Assembly (NCBI GenBank): GCA_026015185.1
Contig: JAOZGX010000051.1
Span: 1 to 60,824 of the forward strand
Reading direction: 5' to 3'
DNA length: 60,824 nt
Source: Candidatus Bathyarchaeota archaeon
GTDB taxonomy: Archaea > Thermoproteota > Bathyarchaeia > 40CM-2-53-6 > RBG-13-38-9
Made by a program: the position numbers and the translations under genes. The notes under the pieces were generated by a model. The model had not been told where the DNA came from. It ran no database searches and worked only from the letters and a program-made list of their open reading frames with translations. Of this stretch, positions 1 through 28,720 are shown piece after piece; positions within the stretch are counted from its first letter, which is position 1; every line of letters begins with the position of its first letter.

Positions 1-1817
1 AAAACGTGAGTAGTTATCGTATACGTTCCAGGCGTAATACCTGAGGTCCAAGAAGCAAATTCTTGTGGTACATGGCCGTCGAACATAGTTGGAGTACCAG
101 AGTAGCAGGTAGGATTGCCGAAGAAGGTCTTGAACATCCATCTACCGGTGGCATTGGTAATATCCCACGCACAGCAGCCTGGGTATACTTCTATACCTGC
201 AGCGCCGTCAGGGTAACCTGCCTCGGTGTTAGATACAAAGCCTCCATCTTCATCCCAGATGTACTGAGCATAGTATCCCCATCTAGCATAGTCACCTGTA
301 GTAGTATCAAAAGCTGGATCTCCTCCCCAAATTGGGTTGCCTGCCCCGTCATCACCGCCTGGCCATTGGCCAAATATATAGATTGGGACAAAGTTGTTCT
401 CTGGATAGCTTGTCATAGCTACGTAATCTGGGAATGGAATCGGTCCTGCCGGACACTTGGAGAATACCGTTGTGGCTATCTTGAAGGCTGGTTGCACACA
501 TATGGTCAAGTACTTAGACTGACCAGCAAAGACCGTAATCTCTTGCGGCAACGTATACGGGACCATACCCAAAGCGTGGGCGGTTACAGTATACGTACCT
601 GGTGCAAGACCTTCAATCTCGAAGTATCCCTCAGCTGAAGCTGCGAAGTATCCCATACCAACAACATGCCTACCTTCAGGTGAGGTTCCCTCGGCAATAA
701 CTTTGCCTGGAACTAGCACACCGTCACCATAGTATAGACCATAGTAGTAGGCTGTGTGAGCACAGTAGATAACACGACCAGCTATGTAAGCTGGGTCTAC
801 TTCTGCTTTGACCACAACTACAGGGTAGTTCTCAGAAGAGATCGAGTTCTTAACTTCGTACCAACCGTTTACGTATCCGGTTGTGTATAGTACCTTGAAT
901 TGATATTTGCCTGCAATGCTAGGAGCGGTAAGGCCCCTTACTCTTATGTAATAACATCCACTGGAATTCCACAATTGAGTCTGATCGCCGACTACTGCTG
1001 TTGGGAATGATGCTGGAGCCACTTGCCTATCCCACCATGGATCTTGGAAAGCGGGATAAAGCCAGTTTGAATTTGTCGTCGCTGCTGGAGTTACATTAGG
1101 AGGTAAGGCTAGACCAGCTGGCCATTCTACCGCTGGTGCACTGACTCTGACGAACCACCAACCAGGTGCCCTCAAATCAGAGCCCTTGAACTTGCCTACT
1201 TGTATGTACCTATAGTCGTTTGTAATACTCGTTATTACAGAAGCTGCATTTCCCCAACCGCTGTTCTCAGTGGTTGGATCGTCCCAGCCTTCTGGATCAT
1301 TCCATCCCTCTGGTACACCGAACTCTGGAGGGATAGCGATGTAGAACCATTTAGAATGTGGCTGGAAGTCTGGTTTATCTGGATCGCCTATATCAGTTAC
1401 TCCATCAGGCAAAGTGCCTTGGTCAGTTGTTTCCCATGTAATGTCGATAGGTGCAGATATGTTGATGTAGAACCACATGTCACCCATAGTGTCAGTTAAA
1501 ATGGCACCGTCAGGTGAGTAGTAGTTCGCTTGTGCACTTAAAGGCAAGTAGTTCTTGCCTGGAAGCGCGTATACAACGGTTGCTTCAGCATCAACACCCC
1601 AAACATGGAAATTGCCTCCATCTGGATTTGGTTGTCCATCTACATGTGCTAGTCCAAGAGCACCAGGCTTATCAACACCTTTCGTTCCCATTGGTTGTGC
1701 GGGACCAGTGGGTGATTGATAGCCCAATGTATTGTGGGCGGCGGCTTGTGGAATTGCCATAAAGCCCGAAGTTATAAATAGCGTCACTGCGATAATCGCT
1801 AGTACTTTCTTATTCAT
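1..1817 (-). CDS. Large secreted surface protein, S-layer-like (partial, runs off left edge)
   Basis: An open frame of about 605 codons from an ATG at 1817 reaches the window edge without a stop, so the C-terminus is missing. The N-terminus is a signal peptide of about 26 residues (two Lys, a hydrophobic core, then an Ala-Ala-Ala site). The mature part is rich in Trp, Tyr, Pro and Gly and poor in Lys, as in archaeal cell-surface proteins. Around residues 340-440 and again at the edge (about 590-600) there are carboxypeptidase-regulatory-like beta-sandwich motifs of the form GLAPGTYTV and GITPGTYTI. A GAGGAAAAAG ribosome site precedes the start. The coding GC is clearly higher than its neighbours, which is common for abundant surface proteins. 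I infer an S-layer or major envelope protein; a large secreted adhesin is the alternative. Confidence 0.75.
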   Translation of the reverse strand, partial: MNKKVLAIIAVTLFITSGFMAIPQAAAHNTLGYQSPTGPAQPMGTKGVDKPGALGLAHVDGQPNPDGGNFHVWGVDAEATVVYALPGKNYLPLSAQANYYSPDGAILTDTMGDMWFYINISAPIDITWETTDQGTLPDGVTDIGDPDKPDFQPHSKWFYIAIPPEFGVPEGWNDPEGWDDPTTENSGWGNAASVITSITNDYRYIQVGKFKGSDLRAPGWWFVRVSAPAVEWPAGLALPPNVTPAATTNSNWLYPAFQDPWWDRQVAPASFPTAVVGDQTQLWNSSGCYYIRVRGLTAPSIAGKYQFKVLYTTGYVNGWYEVKNSISSENYPVVVVKAEVDPAYIAGRVIYCAHTAYYYGLYYGDGVLVPGKVIAEGTSPEGRHVVGMGYFAASAEGYFEIEGLAPGTYTVTAHALGMVPYTLPQEITVFAGQSKYLTICVQPAFKIATTVFSKCPAGPIPFPDYVAMTSYPENNFVPIYIFGQWPGGDDGAGNPIWGGDPAFDTTTGDYARWGYYAQYIWDEDGGFVSNTEAGYPDGAAGIEVYPGCCAWDITNATGRWMFKTFFGNPTCYSGTPTMFDGHVPQEFASWTSGITPGTYTITTHV

Positions 1818-1976
1818 TTTCTTTTTCCTCTTAATTTTTTAAGTAACAGAAATTATTCCTGAAACTATGAAGACCAATTAAGGTCTACCGCACATATTTA
1901 AATCAATATAACGAGATTCAATATATTTATAAAAATTAGAGTATAGTTAATAGGATTTATAAAATAATGGTAAGGC
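1818..1976. promoter_or_regulatory. Divergent promoter region between surface protein and nuclease-like gene
   Basis: For the minus-strand gene a TATA-like TTTAAATAT lies near 1897-1906, about 80 nt before the ATG, leaving a leader of roughly 50-60 nt. That leader contains the inverted repeat AGACC-AATTAA-GGTCT at 1871-1886. For the plus-strand gene TATA-like stretches lie at about 1925-1935 and 1955-1964. Position and composition only; no transcript evidence. Confidence 0.4.
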
Positions 1977-8323: not shown

Positions 8324-9763
8324 TTAAGATTTTTGTTGCTTAGTGATTTTGTCCTTTACAATTTCTTTAGTTAATTCTGGGTCAGCTTTGCCCTTTGTCA
8401 TCTCCATTATTTTTCCTATCAAAAAGTGCATTGCTTTCTCTTCTTTTAAAGCATCTTTTACTGCTTCACTATGTTTCTTGAATACTTCATCAGCCAATTT
8501 CTCGATTGTAGCTCGGGAGTGAATTCGAATTAAGCCCTTTTCTTTGATTATTATTTCAGGCTCCTTGCCCGTATCGATCATTTCCTCAAGTACTTCTTTG
8601 GCAATTTTTCCACTTATAGTTCCATCGTCAATTAGCTCAAGCATGTTCATAATATGCTTTGGTCCTATCTTCAATTCAGTTAACGTAATTGACTTCTCAT
8701 GAATATAACCTAGCAAATCCCCTACCAACCAATTGCTGATAATATCAGGTTTATCATATGATTCTAAGCATTCCTCAAAAAAGTCTGAAAGAATTTTATT
8801 ATTTACCAACACTTCAGCGTTCTGTGATGATATACTATATTTTTTCATCAAGCGATCTTTATGTGCATCAGGTAGCTCTGGCATCGTTGACTTGGTCTTT
8901 TCTATCAATTCTTTTTCTATGGCTATTGGTACTAAATCAGGTTCTGGAAAATATCTATAATCTTGTTCCTCCTCTTTAACACGTAGAGTAACTGTCACCC
9001 TCCTCAATTCATCCCAATGCCTCGTTTCCATTGCTGAACTAGCTCCTCTGCTTAGCAAATTTTTTTGTCTGGATATTTCAAAGCTTAAAGCTCTCTCTAC
9101 TTCTTTGAAGGACGAGATATTCTTGATTTCCACGCGTTTCCCCCCTGCTAATGAGATGTTTGCATCACATCTCATAGAACCTTCAAGTTCAGCGGATGAA
9201 ACTTCTAAATGCTCTAGAATGGACCTCAATTTTTGTAGAAAAATCCTGGCTTCCTTCGGCGAGTTCATATCGGGCTCAGTTACAATTTCCAAAAGAGCGA
9301 TACCTGCTCTATTATAATCAACTAAGGCGCTCTTTGAAGCATAAATGGTCCCTTCATAAGATATTCTAGCAGGATCTTCCTCAATTTGTATTCTTTGGAT
9401 TCTTACTTTCTTCTCTGGTAATAGCACATATCCTCCGGTTGACAGAGTAACCCCACCGGCTTTATCATACTGCGAAATTTGAAAATTCTTTGGCATATCA
9501 GGATAAAAATAATTTTTTCTGAAAAAGAACATCTTATCTGAAATTTTAGAGTTTAATGCTAATGCTACTAAGATTGCATCCTTGACAGCCTTCTCATTCA
9601 AAACAGGTAAAGTACCAGGTAGCCCCAGACAGACCGAACACACATAGGAATTGGCATCTTTTCCGCGATAATCAGTTGGACAGCTACAGAATAGTTTGGT
9701 TCTTAAGTTGGTTAATTGAGTATGTACTTCAAGTCCAATTTTGATTTCGGTCATCCCTTTCAT
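8324..9763 (-). CDS. gatB: Asp-tRNA(Asn)/Glu-tRNA(Gln) amidotransferase subunit B
   Basis: 479 residues. The N-terminus EIKIGLEVHTQL, the zinc-type CSCP...CSVCLGLPGTLP cluster (about residues 25-52), FFRKNYFYPDMPKNFQISQYD and the C-terminal YqeY-like helical domain (about 330-479) are diagnostic. GatB binds the mischarged tRNA and phosphorylates the aminoacyl side chain before amidation. Two in-frame ATGs, 9763 and 9754, are both possible starts; the second gives the more usual N-terminus. It is the last gene of aspS-gatC-gatA-gatB. Confidence 0.96.
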   Translation of the reverse strand: MKGMTEIKIGLEVHTQLTNLRTKLFCSCPTDYRGKDANSYVCSVCLGLPGTLPVLNEKAVKDAILVALALNSKISDKMFFFRKNYFYPDMPKNFQISQYDKAGGVTLSTGGYVLLPEKKVRIQRIQIEEDPARISYEGTIYASKSALVDYNRAGIALLEIVTEPDMNSPKEARIFLQKLRSILEHLEVSSAELEGSMRCDANISLAGGKRVEIKNISSFKEVERALSFEISRQKNLLSRGASSAMETRHWDELRRVTVTLRVKEEEQDYRYFPEPDLVPIAIEKELIEKTKSTMPELPDAHKDRLMKKYSISSQNAEVLVNNKILSDFFEECLESYDKPDIISNWLVGDLLGYIHEKSITLTELKIGPKHIMNMLELIDDGTISGKIAKEVLEEMIDTGKEPEIIIKEKGLIRIHSRATIEKLADEVFKKHSEAVKDALKEEKAMHFLIGKIMEMTKGKADPELTKEIVKDKITKQQKS

Positions 9764-15752: not shown

Positions 15753-16850
15753 ATGAAGGGTTTGATACTGGCGGGAGGTTTTGGGACGAGATTAAGACCT
15801 CTATCTTGTACAAGACCGAAATTACTTTTTCCAATAGCTGGCAGAACGATGTTAGAGTGGATTTTGAAAAATATCTGTGGAAGTGATGTTGAAGAATTAA
15901 TTCTAGCGGTAAATTATTTTGCAGAAATTCTTGAAAAGAGAGTTGGAGATAGAATGGGCGATACCAAGATTACATATTCGCTTGAATCCAAATCTCTAGG
16001 AACTGCTGGACCTGTGAAGAATGCAGAAAAAGAATTGCAAAATGGAGATACCTTTCTCACAATTAATGGAGATATTCTTGCAGAGATTCCTCTTAAGGAA
16101 ATGCTAGAAATCCATTCGAGTAATGAAGCCATAGTAACGGTTGCATTACACAAAGTTCAAGATCCAAGCAGATATGGTGTGGCGGAATTTGACGAAGAAA
16201 TGCATATTAAAAGATTCGTAGAAAAACCTAAGGAAAAGGAAGCTCCAAGCAGATGGATCAATGCAGGCATTTACTTGATGGAACCTGATATTCTGAAATA
16301 CATAACATCTGGCAAGAAAGTAAGTTTGGAAAAAGAAATATTTCCAGTTTTGGTGAAAGAGGAAAAATTATATGGATATAGGCTTGATGGAATTTGGTTC
16401 GATGTTGGAAATTTAAATGATTATAAGAAAGCTAATTATACAATGATTGAAGCTGAATCGAATAACCAACGTCTTTCAGATAAAGTCTTTGAAATAAATG
16501 ATAAAACGACTCTAGTCTCACCTTCTGTAATAAAAGAGGGAGTTACGATTGGAGATTACTCCGAGATTGGGCCGAATTCTGTAATAGGACATAATTCAAA
16601 TATCGGCAAAAGCAGCACTATTAAGAATTCTATCCTATTCGAGAACGTTAGTATTGGTGAGAATACAAAAATCGAAAACTCCATAATAGGTGGAGGAGTC
16701 TATATAGGCAACAATGTTACGATAGGCTGCGAATGTGTAATTAGTGATTATGTAGAAATACATGATGGAATTTCTATTTCCGAAGGTGCCATTATCTGCC
16801 CTTATAAAGAAGTTGAAGAGAATATTTCAGTTAATTCTCATATACTATAA
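15753..16850 (+). CDS. Nucleotidyltransferase with beta-helix domain, mannose-1-phosphate guanylyltransferase-like
   Basis: 365 residues from an ATG. N-terminal domain: AGGFGTRLRPLSCTRPK (about 6-23), LGTAGPVKNAE, the metal-binding NGDILAEI, VEKPKE and GIWFDVGNLNDY. The C-terminal third (about 250-355) has hexapeptide repeats (IGDYSEIGPNSVIGHNSNIG) of a left-handed beta-helix. This layout is that of archaeal GDP-mannose or dTDP-glucose pyrophosphorylases; GDP-mannose is my first guess. It begins a plus-strand run of sugar-activation genes and feeds NDP-sugar to glycosylation. Confidence 0.88.
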   Translation: MKGLILAGGFGTRLRPLSCTRPKLLFPIAGRTMLEWILKNICGSDVEELILAVNYFAEILEKRVGDRMGDTKITYSLESKSLGTAGPVKNAEKELQNGDTFLTINGDILAEIPLKEMLEIHSSNEAIVTVALHKVQDPSRYGVAEFDEEMHIKRFVEKPKEKEAPSRWINAGIYLMEPDILKYITSGKKVSLEKEIFPVLVKEEKLYGYRLDGIWFDVGNLNDYKKANYTMIEAESNNQRLSDKVFEINDKTTLVSPSVIKEGVTIGDYSEIGPNSVIGHNSNIGKSSTIKNSILFENVSIGENTKIENSIIGGGVYIGNNVTIGCECVISDYVEIHDGISISEGAIICPYKEVEENISVNSHIL

Positions 16851-17126: not shown

Positions 17127-18512
17127 ATGAAAAAAGAGAGCTCAGATAAAAAAAGATTATTCGGCACAAATGGAGTTAGAGGGATCGTAAATGAAGAGAT
17201 GACTCCACAATTAGTTCTTAATCTTGGGCACTCAATCGGTACTTTTTTCAGTGGAAAGAAATTTCTCCTTGCTTATGATGGAAGATTAAGCAACATTATG
17301 CTCTCAGATGCCATGGCATCTGGTTTGATAGGAGCAGGATGTAAGGTATATGATGCTGGTATGATGCCGACTCCGGCACTGCAATACCTAACTAGAAAAT
17401 GGAAGATGGATTCAGGAGTAATGATAACAGCGAGCCACAATCCCCCTGAATACAACGGTGTTAAAGTTATCGATGGGGATGGAATTGAGATCCCTAGAGA
17501 AAAAGAAATAGAGATTGAAAAGATCTTCTTCAAAGATGCATATGTTCTCTCTGAGTGGGATAAATTAGGTAATAGAATCCCTAAGCCTGGTGGTTTGGAT
17601 GAATATAAAGCAAGTATAAAAATTCAAGTCGATGAAGGCCTAATTAGGCATGCAAAATTGAAAGTTGTTATCGATCCAGCGAATGGAGTTGGCGGATTAG
17701 TTACTCCATATTTATTGCATGAATTAGGATGCGAAGTACGCACTATAAATTCAAATATAGATGGAAAATTTCCTGGAAGACCGCCTGAACCAACATTAAA
17801 TAATATTTCGCAATTATGTGAGGTTGTCAAAGCTTGTAATGCGGATCTTGGGATTGCACATGATGGAGATGCGGACAGGACAATCTTTGTGGATGAGAAA
17901 GGTATAGCTCATTGGGGCGACAAGAGTTTTGCTATAATTGAGGACTATTATCTATCAAAAAATCCAGGAAAATCGGTTGTGACACCAGTTAGCTCCTCTA
18001 AGGCAATTGAAGAGATCGCTGTAAAGCACGGAAGTAAAATAATATGGACAAAAGTAGGTAGTATAAACGTTTCTAGGAAAATGCAGGAAATGAAAACGCC
18101 ATTAGGAGGGGAAGAAAATGGTGGAATTTTTTACGGTCCTCACCAACCTGTAAGAGATGGTGCAATGGTTGCTTCCCTTATGATCGAGATAATGGCTCAT
18201 GAAAAAATTGGACTTTCTAACCTTGTTAAAAAATTACCCCTGTATTTTTCAGCTAAAGATAAAATTCCCTGCCCAGAAAATTTAAAGGAGAAGGCTCTTG
18301 AGCATTTGTTAGACAAATCCAAAAACCAAAAAAATGAAACTCTAGACGGTTTGAAAATATGGTTATCAGATAAAAGCTGGGTATTAATAAGGCCAAGCGG
18401 TACAGAACCGATTTATAGAATATTTGCAGAGGCTTCCAAAGAAAAAGATGCCCATAATTTAGTAAGAGAATATAAGACGATCATAAGCGGAATTATTGAA
18501 AAATTACGATAA
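17127..18512 (+). CDS. glmM: Phosphoglucosamine mutase / phosphomannomutase family
   Basis: 461 residues from an ATG. Domain order is that of alpha-D-phosphohexomutases: FGTNGVRGIVNEE at the N-terminus, the phosphoserine loop ITASHNPPEYNG (Ser103), the magnesium loop DGDADRT, the sugar-binding GGEENGG and the C-terminal phosphate site RPSGTEPIYRI. It interconverts sugar-6-P and sugar-1-P. The FGTNGVRG start favours glucosamine over mannose, but archaeal members are often bifunctional. It is followed after 12 nt by a GlcNAc-1-P transferase gene, consistent with UDP-GlcNAc supply. Confidence 0.88.
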   Translation: MKKESSDKKRLFGTNGVRGIVNEEMTPQLVLNLGHSIGTFFSGKKFLLAYDGRLSNIMLSDAMASGLIGAGCKVYDAGMMPTPALQYLTRKWKMDSGVMITASHNPPEYNGVKVIDGDGIEIPREKEIEIEKIFFKDAYVLSEWDKLGNRIPKPGGLDEYKASIKIQVDEGLIRHAKLKVVIDPANGVGGLVTPYLLHELGCEVRTINSNIDGKFPGRPPEPTLNNISQLCEVVKACNADLGIAHDGDADRTIFVDEKGIAHWGDKSFAIIEDYYLSKNPGKSVVTPVSSSKAIEEIAVKHGSKIIWTKVGSINVSRKMQEMKTPLGGEENGGIFYGPHQPVRDGAMVASLMIEIMAHEKIGLSNLVKKLPLYFSAKDKIPCPENLKEKALEHLLDKSKNQKNETLDGLKIWLSDKSWVLIRPSGTEPIYRIFAEASKEKDAHNLVREYKTIISGIIEKLR

Positions 18513-23294: not shown

Positions 23295-23354
23295 TAGAAT
23301 AAGTGCATGAATCCATATCAAATATTTAGTCTCAATTCAATAAGGGTCCAAATA

Positions 23355-23633
23355 ATGAAAAGAAGCTTGATGGAAATACTTGCATGTCCTATGGATAAAT
23401 ACAATCCACTTCAATTACTAATTTTCAAGCAAAAGGATGAGATAGTAGAAGGTTTGATAACATGCAAAAAATGTAACAGATTTTATCCGATAATTGACGA
23501 GATTCCTCACATGCTCCCTGATGACCTGCGCTCTGAAAAAGAAGATTTAGCATTTTTAAAAAAGTGGAGTAACAAAATACCTGAAGAAATCCTGAAAGAT
23601 GGAAAGCCATTTAGCTTAAAAAAGAAGAAATGA
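23355..23633 (+). CDS. Trm112-like zinc-ribbon protein
   Basis: 92 residues from the ATG at 23355; an in-frame ATG at 23307 would add 16 residues not seen in the family. MKRSLMEILACPMD, then GLITCKKCNRFYPIIDEIPHMLPDDLR is the Trm112 pattern: a zinc-ribbon protein that activates tRNA, rRNA and release-factor methyltransferases. The first knuckle is CPMD rather than CPxC, a variant known in some members. A long charged C-terminal tail ends in lysines. Confidence 0.85.
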   Translation: MKRSLMEILACPMDKYNPLQLLIFKQKDEIVEGLITCKKCNRFYPIIDEIPHMLPDDLRSEKEDLAFLKKWSNKIPEEILKDGKPFSLKKKK

Positions 23634-23708
23634 CATAAGCTTTTTGAAGAGTTAAAGATTTAAGAAAGATATGCTGATAAGAGTCTCTCGGCCCGGGAGT
23701 CAATATTT
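23634..23708 (+). promoter_or_regulatory. Promoter and leader of the tRNA-Gln gene
   Basis: A TATA-like TTTAAGAAA at 23659-23667 would place transcription near 23690, giving a short 5' leader. The leader holds GGCCCGGGAG (23690-23699), which is complementary, with one 2-nt bulge, to the tRNA 3' half CTCCCCCGGGC (23850-23860). Confidence 0.4.
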
Positions 23709-23718
23709 AGCCCGGTGG

Positions 23719-23746
23719 AGGAAGAGTTTCATAATCTTCCGCCGAG
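23719..23746 (+). other. tRNA-Gln intron 1 (28 nt, after position 10)
   Basis: Central helix CGGT (23713-23716) with GCCG (23741-23744), the last pair being U-G. Bulges are GG|A and AG|T. An inner stem GGAAGA/TCTTCC lies directly against the central helix with a 9-nt loop. Noncanonical position in the D-stem. Confidence 0.88.
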
Positions 23747-23761
23747 TGTAGCGGACAAGCA

Positions 23762-23784
23762 CAAGTCTAAAAAGACTTCTTGAA
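23762..23784 (+). other. tRNA-Gln intron 2 (23 nt, after position 24)
   Basis: Central helix CAAG (23756-23759) with CTTG (23779-23782). Bulges are CA|C and AA|T. Inner stem AAGTC/GACTT with a 6-nt loop. Noncanonical position at the end of the D-stem. Confidence 0.88.
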
Positions 23785-23797
23785 TTGCGGGCTTTGG

Positions 23798-23813
23798 ATC
23801 AAAAGTAGAAGAC
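23798..23813 (+). other. tRNA-Gln intron 3 (16 nt, canonical 37/38)
   Basis: Central helix CTTT (23792-23795) with GAAG (23808-23811), the last pair being U-G. Bulges are GG|A and AC|A, the outer helix is the anticodon stem, and a 9-nt terminal loop replaces the inner stem. Confidence 0.88.
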
Positions 23814-23828
23814 ACCCGCCGACGGGAG

Positions 23829-23842
23829 AGCGATTTCCCGAA
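23829..23842 (+). other. tRNA-Gln intron 4 (14 nt, after position 53)
   Basis: Central helix CGGG (23823-23826) with CCCG (23837-23840). Bulges are AG|A and AA|T. Outer helix CGA/TCG and a 7-nt loop GCGATTT. Noncanonical position between T-stem and T-loop; one of the shortest introns possible for this enzyme. Confidence 0.88.
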
Positions 23843-23865
23843 TTCGAATCTCCCCCGGGCTACCA

Positions 23866-24096: not shown

Positions 24097-24750
24097 TTGT
24101 TAATTAATTTGAAACTCGATGATAAAACAATTCTGATATTCGGCGGTGGAAGTATTGGCGAAAGAAAGACCAAGAAGTTTCTACATACTAACTCAAAAGT
24201 TATGATTTTGGGCAAGGATTTTACGTCTGAGTTAAAAAAAATAAGTAAAAGCCATAATATCGAGTTAAAACAAATTGATCTAAAGAAAAATTTCTCATCA
24301 ATAATTCCCTTAATTGCAAAATCAGATATAGTCATTGCTGCATTAGACGATTCCTTGTTAAACAAGAGAATATCCTCTGAGGCAGGGAAAAAAAATATTT
24401 TAGTAAATGTTGTTGATGATCCTACCTTAAGTGATTTTTACGTTCCTGCAACGACAAGCATAGGTGAAATAGATGTTGCAATAAGTACAGACGGTAAAAG
24501 TCCAGCTATGGCTGGAATTCTACGTAAGAAAATAATAAAGTGCATTACAACCGAAGAAATTCTTCAAGTTGGACTTCAAGATTATGCGAGAAAGCTTTTA
24601 AAGAATTGTGATTTTGATAGAGAAACTCGTCGTGAGATTTTGTATAAAATAATTCAAAATTCCAGAATTAAACAACTACTAAAAGAAGAAAAATTAGATG
24701 AAGCAAAGGATCTTGTAAATAAAATCATTAAAAATAATCAAAAAATATGA
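24097..24750 (+). CDS. Precorrin-2 dehydrogenase / sirohydrochlorin ferrochelatase (Met8/CysG-N type)
   Basis: 217 residues from a TTG. It starts as the family does (LINLKLDDKTILIFGGGSIGERKTKKFL), with a Rossmann NAD site, then VIAALDDSLLN, NVVDDPTLSDFYVPAT and STDGKSPAMAGILRKKI. It oxidises precorrin-2 to sirohydrochlorin and may insert iron to make siroheme, the entry compound of the Ahb heme route encoded downstream. The C-terminal dimerisation helices are present (about 145-217). First gene of the plus-strand heme cluster. Confidence 0.92.
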   Translation: MLINLKLDDKTILIFGGGSIGERKTKKFLHTNSKVMILGKDFTSELKKISKSHNIELKQIDLKKNFSSIIPLIAKSDIVIAALDDSLLNKRISSEAGKKNILVNVVDDPTLSDFYVPATTSIGEIDVAISTDGKSPAMAGILRKKIIKCITTEEILQVGLQDYARKLLKNCDFDRETRREILYKIIQNSRIKQLLKEEKLDEAKDLVNKIIKNNQKI

Positions 24751-24789
24751 TTAAATATAGAATCGCTAGATTTTGGAGTAAGAAATTTT

Positions 24790-25773
24790 ATGTTTCCTGA
24801 ATCAAGGTTGAGAAGGCTTCGGAAGCCCCAAATAAGGAAACTTGCCAAAGAAACATTGTTAGACGCAAGTGATTTTGTTTATCCAATCTTTATCAAAGAG
24901 GGCATTGATTCTCCAGAGCCTATAAAAGCCATGCCTGGTCAATTCCAGCTTCCTTTGAATAAGGTAGTTAATGAAGCTGAAAATCTTATTTCATTAGGTA
25001 TACCTGGAACAATTCTATTTGGGATTCCTATCGAAAAAGATGAGACAGGTTCCTCAGCATATAATAAAAAAGGAATAATTCAAAAAGCCATTAGGAAAAT
25101 AAAAGAACAAGCGAAAAATGATTTAACAGTTATTACCGACATCTGTCTTTGTCAATACACAACTCATGGTCATTGTGGCATAATTAAGGACAATGAAGTA
25201 TTAAATGATCCAACTCTTGAGGTAATGGAAAAAATTGCTGTGAGTCATGCCGAAGCTGGTGCAGACGTAGTAGCGCCATCCGCTATGATGGATGGACAGG
25301 TTAAAGCAATAAGGAAAGCGCTTGACCAATCCGGATTCTCAGATGTGGCCATAATGGCTTATTCAGCCAAACATGCCTCTAATTTCTATGGACCATTCAG
25401 GGAAGCAGCGCAATCCGCTCCTTCATTTGGAGATCGAAGAAGCTATCAAATGGATTTCTCAAATCCGAATGAAGCACTTCGTGAAGCGGAGCTTGATATT
25501 AAAGAAGGAGCCGATATAGTCATGGTAAAACCTGCATTGGCCTATCTGGATTTGATATTCAGAATAAGAAATGAATTCAAGTTGCCAACTGCAGCATATA
25601 ACGTAAGTGGAGAATATTCTATGATTAAAGCTGCTGCTGGGAATGGCTGGATAAATGAAAAAGCAATTATAATTGAAGTCTTGACCGCTATAAAGAGAGC
25701 TGGAGCCGATATAATTCTCACATATTTTGCCAAAGATGTTGCGGGTTGGTTGAAAAAAAATGAAAAAATCTAA
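24790..25773 (+). CDS. hemB: Porphobilinogen synthase (5-aminolevulinate dehydratase)
   Basis: 327 residues from an ATG, full length. The zinc-binding cysteine cluster DICLCQYTTHGHCG is intact, as are the two active-site lysines in YSAKHASNFYGPFREAA and MVKPALAYLD. It condenses two 5-aminolevulinates to porphobilinogen. It overlaps the start of hemL by 14 nt, so the two are probably translationally coupled. Confidence 0.97.
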   Translation: MFPESRLRRLRKPQIRKLAKETLLDASDFVYPIFIKEGIDSPEPIKAMPGQFQLPLNKVVNEAENLISLGIPGTILFGIPIEKDETGSSAYNKKGIIQKAIRKIKEQAKNDLTVITDICLCQYTTHGHCGIIKDNEVLNDPTLEVMEKIAVSHAEAGADVVAPSAMMDGQVKAIRKALDQSGFSDVAIMAYSAKHASNFYGPFREAAQSAPSFGDRRSYQMDFSNPNEALREAELDIKEGADIVMVKPALAYLDLIFRIRNEFKLPTAAYNVSGEYSMIKAAAGNGWINEKAIIIEVLTAIKRAGADIILTYFAKDVAGWLKKNEKI

Positions 25774-27040
25774 TTCCGAAATTTCCTACTCAAAAGCTAA
25801 GAAACTCATGCCTGGTGGAGTCAATAGTCCAGTTAGAGCGTTTGAACCATACCCGTTTTTTACTTCCTATGCTGAAGGTTCAAGACTTCATGATATCGAT
25901 GGAAATGCTTACATAGACTACTGCTTGGCTTATGGTCCGCTTATACTAGGGCATTCGAATCCAAGAATAATTGAAGCTGTAAGAACTCAGATTGATAAAG
26001 GGACTTTATATGGAACTCCAACTGAAATTGAGGTAGAACTAGCGGAACTTATTACGAAACTTGTGCCTTCTATAGAAATGCTGAGGCTCGTGAATACAGG
26101 TACTGAGGCAACGATGCATGCAATTAGGCTAGCTAGAGGATATACCGGACGCAATAAAATTATAAAATTCGAAGGTTGTTACCACGGTGCTCATGATTAT
26201 GTCCTAGTTAAAGCAGGATCTGGTGCAACAACTTTTGGTGCACCCGATTCACATGGAATTCCAGAAGATACTACAAAAAATACAATCGTAATACCGTTTA
26301 ACGATATTAAATCCTTTATGGATGTAATTAAACAAAATCAAGATGAGATTGCTGCAGTAATAATCGAGCCCATTATCGGAAATGCTGGTGTGATACTACC
26401 TATAGAAGAGTATCTAAATTCCATCCGTAAAATTACTGAGGAAGAGGGAATTGTTTTAATCTTCGATGAAATTATTACAGGTTTTAGATTGACTCTGGGT
26501 GGAGCGCAAGAATATTACGGAATAAACCCCGATATTACTACCCTTGGAAAGATAATAGGAGGGGGTTTTCCAATTGCCGTCTATGGTGGAAAAAAGGAAA
26601 TCTTTGAACTGGTATCTCCTTTAGGAAAAGTGTATCAAGCCAGTACTTTTGCTGGAAATCCGATCTCTACAACCGCAGGTTTAGCTACTCTAAAAATCCT
26701 CTCTGAGAATAAAAATGTCATATATAAAAAATTGGAAAATAACGGAAATAAGATTAGAAATGGACTCCAAGATATAATTAGAGACAAAGGGATTTCTGCA
26801 CAAGTAAATGGATTAACTTCTATGTTCCAAATCTTCTTTACAGATGAGGACGTAATTGATTACAAGACGGCTAAAAGCTCAGATATAGTCAAATTCATGT
26901 CCTATCAGAAGTACCTTGTGAGTAATGGAGTTTTTATTCCACCATCGCAATTTGAGACTTGTTTCATATCGACTACTCATACTGACGAAGACATAACCGA
27001 GACTTTAGAAGCAATGAATCAAGCCATTAGTGTATTATAA
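25760..27040 (+). CDS. hemL: Glutamate-1-semialdehyde 2,1-aminomutase
   Basis: 426 residues. PMPGGVNSPVRAF-type N-terminus (LMPGGVNSPVRAFEPYP), VNTGTEATMHAIRLARGYTGR, and the PLP lysine in TTLGKIIGGGFPIAVYGG. It makes 5-aminolevulinate from glutamate-1-semialdehyde, proving use of the C5 route. Its partner glutamyl-tRNA reductase is not in this window. It overlaps hemB by 14 nt and precedes hemC by 11 nt. Confidence 0.97.
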   Translation: MKKSNSEISYSKAKKLMPGGVNSPVRAFEPYPFFTSYAEGSRLHDIDGNAYIDYCLAYGPLILGHSNPRIIEAVRTQIDKGTLYGTPTEIEVELAELITKLVPSIEMLRLVNTGTEATMHAIRLARGYTGRNKIIKFEGCYHGAHDYVLVKAGSGATTFGAPDSHGIPEDTTKNTIVIPFNDIKSFMDVIKQNQDEIAAVIIEPIIGNAGVILPIEEYLNSIRKITEEEGIVLIFDEIITGFRLTLGGAQEYYGINPDITTLGKIIGGGFPIAVYGGKKEIFELVSPLGKVYQASTFAGNPISTTAGLATLKILSENKNVIYKKLENNGNKIRNGLQDIIRDKGISAQVNGLTSMFQIFFTDEDVIDYKTAKSSDIVKFMSYQKYLVSNGVFIPPSQFETCFISTTHTDEDITETLEAMNQAISVL

Positions 27041-27051
27041 TTGGGGTTTCC

Positions 27052-27969
27052 ATGAAACTAACCGTTGGAACACGAGGTAGCAAGTTATCTCTAATTCAAA
27101 CTGAAGGCGTTATTAGAAAAATAAAACAAAAAATTCCAGAATTAGAAATAATCGTAAAAGTAATTAAGACAACAGGCGATAAGAAAGCTGACGAATCCCT
27201 ACTATTGATTGAAGAAAAAGGAATGTTCGAAAAAGAGATAGATGAGGCATTAATTCGAGGAGATATTGATTTCGCAGTCCATAGCATGAAAGACGTACCA
27301 ACAATACAGCCTCCAAGATCAGTAATTGTTGCTGTTCCAGAACGTAGCTCTCCAAATGATGTACTAGTCTCAAAGGATAATATCAAATTGATGGATTTGT
27401 CTGAAAGCAGCATAATTGGAACCGGTAGTCCAAGGAGAAGCGCTCAAATAAAATATAAAAGGCCAGATCTAGAGGTCAAACCTATACGCGGTAATGTTGA
27501 TACCCGATTAAACAAGCTTAACCAAGGATTGTATGATGCGATTATAATTGCAGAAGCAGGACTAGATCGTCTTAAAATGGAAAAATATGTGACTGAACGA
27601 TTTTCACTAGAGGAATTTACTCCAGCTGCAGGTCAAGGAGCTTTAGCAGTTGTTGCAAGAGAAGATGATAAGAAAATCACTGAAATCCTAGGTCTAGTAA
27701 ATCATCAACCATCGAAGACAGCAGCTTTGACCGAGAGGGAATTTGTGGAATCTATCGGTGGAGGGTGCAAAGTTCCTTTGGGAGCTTTTTCATGTTTGCA
27801 AGGCAATAGGTTATTGCTTTATGTTTGTATTCTTTCACCTGATGGTAAGACAAAAATTCAATTAAAAGATTCTGGAGATCCGAATTTGCCAAAAGAACTT
27901 GGAAAGAAAACTGCGATGAAGATGCTTGAGATGGGGGCAAAAGTATTGATTGAACGTTGGAGGGCTTGA
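27052..27969 (+). CDS. hemC: Hydroxymethylbilane synthase (porphobilinogen deaminase)
   Basis: 305 residues from an ATG. VGTRGSKLSLIQT at the start, VHSMKDVPT, the arginine-rich GTGSPRRSAQIK, and the dipyrromethane-cofactor cysteine in ESIGGGCKVPLGAF (about residue 237). It polymerises four porphobilinogens into hydroxymethylbilane. The 3' end overlaps the next open frame by about 20 nt. Confidence 0.97.
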   Translation: MKLTVGTRGSKLSLIQTEGVIRKIKQKIPELEIIVKVIKTTGDKKADESLLLIEEKGMFEKEIDEALIRGDIDFAVHSMKDVPTIQPPRSVIVAVPERSSPNDVLVSKDNIKLMDLSESSIIGTGSPRRSAQIKYKRPDLEVKPIRGNVDTRLNKLNQGLYDAIIIAEAGLDRLKMEKYVTERFSLEEFTPAAGQGALAVVAREDDKKITEILGLVNHQPSKTAALTEREFVESIGGGCKVPLGAFSCLQGNRLLLYVCILSPDGKTKIQLKDSGDPNLPKELGKKTAMKMLEMGAKVLIERWRA

Positions 27970-28720
27970 ACTGAAGAAAGGGACAGTATATCTAGTAGGC
28001 AGTGGCCCTGGGGATCCTGATCTAATAAGTGTTAAGGGTCTTAGGTTATTGGAAAATGCAGACGTGGTTATTTATGATCGTCTAGTATCCAGATCCATTA
28101 TTGAAATGATTCCAAAAAAAATTGACAAAATATTTGCAGGAAAATATCCAGGCAAACCGCATTTGAATCAAGATGAAATTAATGAGCTTATGATAAGAGA
28201 GGCAAAGAAAGGTAAGAAGGTGGTTCGTTTAAAAAGTGGAGATGTCTTTCTTTTCGGAAGAGGTGGAGAAGAAGCTCAAATACTTATGGAGGCTGGAATC
28301 GATTATGAGATAGTGCCAGGAATTTCATCGGCATTTGCCGCCCCCGCTTATGTTGGCATACCCTTAACTCATCGTGACTATGCATCCTCAGTTGCGATAG
28401 TTACTGGTCATGAAGATCCCACGAAATCGAAAAATCGCGTCGATTGGAAAAAACTTGCCAAATCGGTTGACACTTTGGTAATAATGATGGGTGTAAGAAA
28501 ATTGGAAACCATTATAGGATCATTGATGAAAGGGGGGAAATCTCCTGAAACAAGTATTGCGATAATAGAAAGTGGAACTACAAAAGATCAAAGAGTGACA
28601 ATCGGCGTTCTCGGTAACATAATTGATAAAGCACGAAATCGAAAAGTAAAAGCACCAGCTGTAATTGTTATCGGAGACATAGTGAAGTTGCATGAGGAAA
28701 TTTCTTGGCTAAAGAGATGA
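27950..28720 (+). CDS. cobA: Uroporphyrinogen-III C-methyltransferase
   Basis: 256 residues from the TTG at 27950. VYLVGSGPGDPDLISVKGLRLL, VIYDRLVS, RLKSGDVFLFGRGGEEA, VPGISSAFAAPAYVGIPLTHR and the C-terminal VIGDIVKLH are diagnostic. It methylates uroporphyrinogen III to precorrin-2. The start is uncertain: a strong GGAGG at 27959-27963 lies 7 nt before an in-frame CTG at 27971, which would give the family-typical N-terminus KKGTVYLVG, whereas the TTG has no ribosome site. Confidence 0.94.
   Translation: MNVGGLELKKGTVYLVGSGPGDPDLISVKGLRLLENADVVIYDRLVSRSIIEMIPKKIDKIFAGKYPGKPHLNQDEINELMIREAKKGKKVVRLKSGDVFLFGRGGEEAQILMEAGIDYEIVPGISSAFAAPAYVGIPLTHRDYASSVAIVTGHEDPTKSKNRVDWKKLAKSVDTLVIMMGVRKLETIIGSLMKGGKSPETSIAIIESGTTKDQRVTIGVLGNIIDKARNRKVKAPAVIVIGDIVKLHEEISWLKR

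Follow-up and report, generated by a model that had tools for sequence, protein, structure and literature searches.

Transfer RNA genes interrupted by several bulge-helix-bulge (BHB) introns are known from the Thermoproteales (Pyrobaculum) and from Thaumarchaeota/Caldiarchaeum, where short introns at canonical and noncanonical sites go together with a heteromeric splicing endonuclease (EndA) and where no more than three introns have been described in any one tRNA gene (PMC8450103, PMC4033280, PMC3293823, PMC4390854). The (alpha-beta)2 form of EndA has been linked to relaxed intron recognition (PMC4090602, PMC4033280, PMC12397907). Sequences upstream of a tRNA are involved in several other described systems. 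In the split tRNAs of Nanoarchaeum and Caldivirga, complementary leader and trailer sequences base-pair in trans next to the splice site; at the Caldiarchaeum tRNA-Thr(GGU) locus, a 5' tRNA piece lies at least 1.8 kb upstream of an intron-rich tRNA (PMC3293823); and in bacteria, according to one report (PMC9433436), pairing between the leader and the 3' RCCA extends the acceptor stem and affects processing.

The window analyzed here, a stretch of 60,824 nucleotides from a Candidatus Bathyarchaeota archaeon (contig JAOZGX010000051.1), contains a tRNA-Gln(UUG) gene that resembles each of these systems in one respect and differs from it in another. It has the short introns, mixed sites, and heteromeric EndA genes of the multi-intron class, but both tRNA-Gln genes of its genome have four introns, one of them at position 2/3. 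As in split tRNAs, a leader-derived pairing appears to be needed for a BHB substrate, but there is only one transcript, on which the leader would take the place of the 5' strand in pairing with the 3' acceptor strand. Where Caldiarchaeum has a distant tRNA piece, the upstream element here is conserved and isotype-specific, complements the 3' strand over 7-10 nt, and sits 0-20 nt from the tRNA; it would replace the 5' strand of the acceptor stem rather than extend the stem as in the bacterial case.

A tRNA-Gln(UUG) gene in five exons

Judged from its sequence, the locus is a four-intron BHB tRNA gene (Table 1). The four-intron solution ranked best in a BHB solver working through combinations of introns, and the coordinates, intron lengths (28, 23, 16, and 14 nt), Sprinzl positions, central helices, and 3-nt bulges given in the earlier note were all confirmed. 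All four junctions form a strict BHB, with a 4-bp central helix, two flanking 3-nt bulges, and a cut after the second bulge base. Removing the introns in silico yields the 76-nt product with invariant bases and genomic CCA that the same note had claimed; ARAGORN identifies it as tRNA-Gln(ttg), its acceptor, anticodon, and T stems are perfect, and U8, A14, G18G19, A21, U33, and TTC at 54-56 are all in place. Neither ARAGORN nor Rfam detected anything in the unspliced window. The tRNA score was 35.5 as against 25.0 for the best shuffle, with none of 400 interior shuffles that kept the favorable ends reaching the real score, and a chance origin of the four-intron solution is excluded.

The five exons are contiguous and in order within 157 bp, so the gene is neither split nor permuted. 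It belongs to the BHB-intron kind of tRNA and exceeds the described size of that kind, having four introns where the described multi-intron class has at most three. The earlier note's statement that three is the most described per gene agrees with the literature (PMC4033280, PMC8450103, PMC4390854); our searches, mostly outside subscription journals, found no four-intron tRNA. The gene is flanked by a Trm112-like gene and a tetrapyrrole cluster (window positions 23307-23633 and 24097-28720), the latter with precorrin-2 dehydrogenase-like, ALAD, class-III aminotransferase (probably HemL), porphobilinogen deaminase, and tetrapyrrole methylase members.

Table 1. Features of the tRNA-Gln(UUG) locus (window positions) and other tRNA genes of the same genome discussed in the text.
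Feature	Location	Strand	Remarks
TATA-like box TTTAAGAA	23659..23666	+	starts 31 nt upstream of leader element; putative promoter function
Leader element GGCCCGGG	23690..23697	+	putative surrogate 5' acceptor strand; complementary to C65-U72, 8 bp, one G-U
tRNA-Gln(UUG) gene, unspliced	23709-23865	+	157 bp; 5 exons, 4 BHB introns
Exon 1	23709..23718	+	positions 1-10, AGCCCGGTGG
Intron 1	23719..23746	+	28 nt, 10/11; BHB central helix C5G6G7U8 : GCCG (CGGT/GCCG)
Exon 2	23747..23761	+	positions 11-24
Intron 2	23762..23784	+	23 nt, 24/25; BHB CAAG/CTTG
Exon 3	23785..23797	+	positions 25-37, anticodon TTG
Intron 3	23798..23813	+	16 nt, canonical 37/38; BHB CTTT/GAAG
Exon 4	23814..23828	+	positions 38-53
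Intron 4	23829..23842	+	14 nt, 53/54; BHB CGGG/CCCG
Exon 5	23843..23865	+	positions 54-76; T-loop, 3' acceptor strand, encoded CCA
tRNA-Gln(CUG)	G000:C44:20508-20653 (L143:609-754)		
tRNA-Asn(GUU)	L360(-) 9403-9539	-	8/9 intron; leader 8 bp to own 3' strand, shuffle p 0.0
tRNA-Phe(GAA)	L020(-) 1746-1861	-	8/9 intron; leader 7 bp, shuffle p 0.008
tRNA-Thr(CGU)	L243(-) 16525-16632	-	8/9 intron; leader 8 bp, shuffle p 0.0

Copies, relatives, and splicing genes

That CAA is decoded by another tRNA, and that the gene studied here is decaying or not expressed, is very improbable in our view. The assembly is a metagenome-assembled genome in 118 contigs from which a copy might be missing, and tRNA finders had passed the gene over; against this, no other tRNA-Gln(UUG), which if intact and with this copy unexpressed would by the earlier note have overturned its reading, turned up in a tRNA search of the 96.6%-complete genome or in the DNA that was read (1.39 of 1.81 Mb), and the exons are identical at 76 of 76 positions in another genus while the introns have diverged. 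That genome, G002 (same family), and G009 (other family, same order; exons 75/76, introns likewise diverged) keep the same four introns, which answers the question of intron number in relatives that had been put forward as a check; G016, G019, and G011 are without the 53/54 intron only. In G002, the central helix of intron 2 contains a single mismatch, which makes this a relaxed motif. Across 30 distinct BHB 1 sequences, compared in a constructed alignment of fixed-frame extracts with loops replaced, the central helix is invariant and all four pairs of the intra-intron helix covary (39 double-changed cells versus 9.6 in shuffles; covariation score 0.450 versus 0.145).

The only other tRNA-Gln found in the genome is a tRNA-Gln(CUG), and it too has to lose four introns, of 16 nt (2/3), 21 nt (linear 22/23), 19 nt (37/38), and 14 nt (53/54). 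Once spliced it is tRNA-Gln(ctg), and the arrangement is identical in G002. The central helix (TTGT) of its 2/3 intron sits in the leader. An A2-C71 mismatch in this gene was dismissed, as the 2/3 intron, found in the same place in two genera, accounts for it. Four-intron genes therefore recur, in both tRNA-Gln of this genome, of G002, and of G009, and in one each of G013 (UUG) and G036 (CUG). Most tRNA genes of the genome carry introns; tRNA-Pro(UGG) (L256(-) 2207-2373) has three including 13/14, and tRNA-Leu(GAG) (L269(-) 18247-18416) has two to four.

The genome also encodes an endonuclease and a ligase for such introns, with two PF01974 genes and RtcB. The 186-aa EndA alpha is closest to Aeropyrum pernix EndA (E 9e-44) and has Tyr, His, and Lys in the catalytic-type motifs FAVY, DHAP, and VRK, and a further lysine aligns in its crenarchaeal loop; EndA beta, of 171 aa, has no histidine. 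By these features the pair matches the (alpha-beta)2 pattern, and the heteromeric enzyme that the earlier note had expected is represented by genes for both subunits.

A leader complementary to the 3' acceptor strand

Just upstream of the coordinates proposed for the tRNA lies the leader element. BHB 1 uses the 5' acceptor strand; the leader, which complements the 3' strand, appears to stand in for the strand that the intron motif takes. Measured from the start of the TATA-like box, the element lies at a median of 30-32 nt in 78 genes, a spacing at which the transcript would be expected to start at the element. We rejected the idea that the leader is itself a promoter element, since its sequence tracks the 3' strand of each isotype; among cross-isotype leader scores, few were not low (18 for Gln leaders on Thr, 20 for the Asn leader on Phe). 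We found no account of an element of this kind in the literature searched, which is weak evidence of absence.

In relatives, a conserved RGCCCGG lies 0-20 nt upstream of tRNA-Gln. All 30 tRNA-Gln genes collected across the class with the 10/11-intron pattern carry the element, and most of 30 genes without the intron do not. A phylum-wide search extended this set by genes from four further families; when an uninterrupted run of at least 6 pairs over most of the acceptor 3' strand was required, the element was present in 47/48 tRNA-Gln genes with the 10/11 intron versus 4/30 without (Fisher p=2e-15, a value that ignores kinship, as occurrences across genes are not phylogenetically independent). 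The match is shorter in L366, the sole failure among the intron-bearing genes. Among the four exceptions lacking the intron, two have T-arm introns (L233, which is L121, at 53/54, and L237 in the T loop, by eye), L220 has a local hairpin leader, and L238 has a 6-bp match only. The tRNA-Gln(CUG) genes L119 and L121 (G017 and G012) have a 53/54 T-arm intron, no acceptor-proximal intron, and a leader match of 11-12 bp that runs into the T stem; in G036 (L122), also with a 53/54 intron, the match is weak. L237 (G005), a tRNA-Gln(CUG), seems to have an intron of 11 nt in the T loop, near 59/60, and a hairpin, TAGCCCGAACTTTCGGGCTA, in its leader.

The association extends beyond tRNA-Gln. In a class-wide search, all 29 scored tRNA-Asn genes with an 8/9 intron carry the element, and GCCGAG lies directly upstream of 10/12 tRNA-Phe genes with GCCGAGGT and an 8/9 intron. 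Within the genome itself, the five tRNAs with introns at 2/3, 8/9, or 10/11 (Gln(UUG), Gln(CUG), Asn, Phe, and Thr) all have a leader pairing of 7-9 bp, that of Gln(CUG) being formed by TGGCCCGGG, whereas none of about 28 other tRNAs has the element. This census drew on 1.39 Mb of the 1.81-Mb genome and on the loci that the tRNA search had found, and it counts as element-free several Leu/Ser and odd-anticodon class I genes whose intron lists are unreliable (long-variable-arm solutions). A leader complementary to the tRNA's own 3' acceptor strand goes with introns at 2/3, 8/9, or 10/11 and is otherwise rare.

Because the element resembles a short copy of the 5' strand, it might be a functionless 5' fragment, duplicated in tRNA-gene recombination and left beside an otherwise ordinary four-intron gene, as the fragment near the disrupted tRNA-Thr of Caldiarchaeum (PMC3293823) would suggest. 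We consider this improbable. The element is kept across many families and several isotypes, 0-20 nt from the tRNA, and it is mostly absent from the Gln genes of genomes in which Asn and Phe carry it: in family f3, Asn and Phe have both intron and element, and Gln lacks the 10/11 intron and mostly lacks the element. It also matches the complement of the 3' strand where the 5' strand differs. In Thr, the leader AGCCCCGG forms Watson-Crick pairs along all of CCGGGGCU, N73 included, and has C opposite G69 where the true 5' strand, GCCUCGG, has U. Many leaders add U opposite A73, the Thr leader adds A opposite U73, and leaders that reach into the T stem do so as GGG or C, matching that strand. In these matches the leader follows the 3' strand and not the 5' strand.

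The resemblance to positions 1-7 would also fit a leader copy that is the true 5' end, joined to the rest by a fifth intron for which CCGG/CCGG could make the central helix. Such a splice, however, swaps the invariant U8 for G or A in nearly all genes, we saw no BHB that keeps U8, and the main copy already makes a perfect acceptor strand; a fifth intron with the leader as exon 1 was rejected on these grounds and has next to no likelihood. A stand-in strand remains the reading we prefer.

Folding of the precursor and a proposed order of processing

Because BHB 1 requires C5G6G7U8, it and the acceptor stem are in competition. Modeled folding of the window gene gives P(BHB1) 0.00 and acceptor stem 0.98-1.00 when the element is missing; with an 18-22-nt leader, P(BHB1) rises to 0.99 and the acceptor falls to 0.00-0.01, with about 7-8 leader:3' pairs. 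In leaders of 24-40 nt a local hairpin brings P(BHB1) down to 0.02-0.25; the switch would therefore work only if transcription starts at the element. Over 47 tRNA-Gln genes, mean P(BHB1) was 0.51 with the native leader, 0.17 with a shuffled leader, and 0.03 with none; the native leader beat the shuffled one in 35/47 and was no better in 12/47. With or without leader, nearest-neighbor folding, which models BHB bulges poorly, yielded neither BHB 1 in Asn nor BHB 1-3 in this genome's Gln(CUG) gene, and we did not rely on it for these genes; leader:3' pairing is predicted in both.

We think it quite probable that tRNA-Gln(UUG) is a working gene with four BHB introns whose leader acts as a surrogate acceptor strand enabling BHB 1. 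BHB 1 can form only by taking C5-U8, mostly 5' acceptor strand, which leaves the 3' acceptor strand partnerless. The leader element at the predicted transcript start would then pair with C65-U72, a pairing to which the complementarity and the phylogenetic association point, giving a precursor with a closed acceptor-like helix and a 5' strand free for BHB 1. An (alpha-beta)2 endonuclease would cut the four introns and RtcB would join the exons; once intron 1 is out, the true 5' strand would displace the leader, and RNase P would trim it. Other tRNAs of the lineage with 2/3, 8/9, and 10/11 introns appear to share the device.

In Methanopyrus kandleri, the ends are trimmed before the introns are removed (PMC3695527), so the order of processing would have to differ here. 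This bears on a different function for the same pairing, namely, that it blocks early RNase P and enforces splicing before 5' processing rather than aiding BHB 1. Trimming first, as in M. kandleri, would strip any leader helper, and the bacterial report (PMC9433436) has leader pairing with the 3' RCCA inhibiting RNase P binding. A block in place of help for BHB 1 is possible but rather unlikely, as the element occurs specifically with introns that use up or break the 5' acceptor strand, and folding gives a direct BHB 1 effect in most Gln genes. The two functions are compatible, and a leader that aids BHB 1 may also hold back RNase P until splicing is finished.

More generally, it is likely that an undescribed archaeal device is at work, in which the first 7-10 nt of a pre-tRNA replace the 5' acceptor strand, free it for a splicing motif, and are swapped out afterwards, letting a tRNA tolerate acceptor-domain introns and reach four introns, one above the published maximum. 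The leader would answer how a BHB in the acceptor strand can form when the acceptor stem should fold first, a problem we did not see raised in the literature searched. It predicts an obligatory strand exchange and an order, splicing and then RNase P, opposite to that inferred for M. kandleri. For tRNA finders, the leader offers a signal toward hidden multi-intron genes of the kind that ARAGORN and Rfam missed here.
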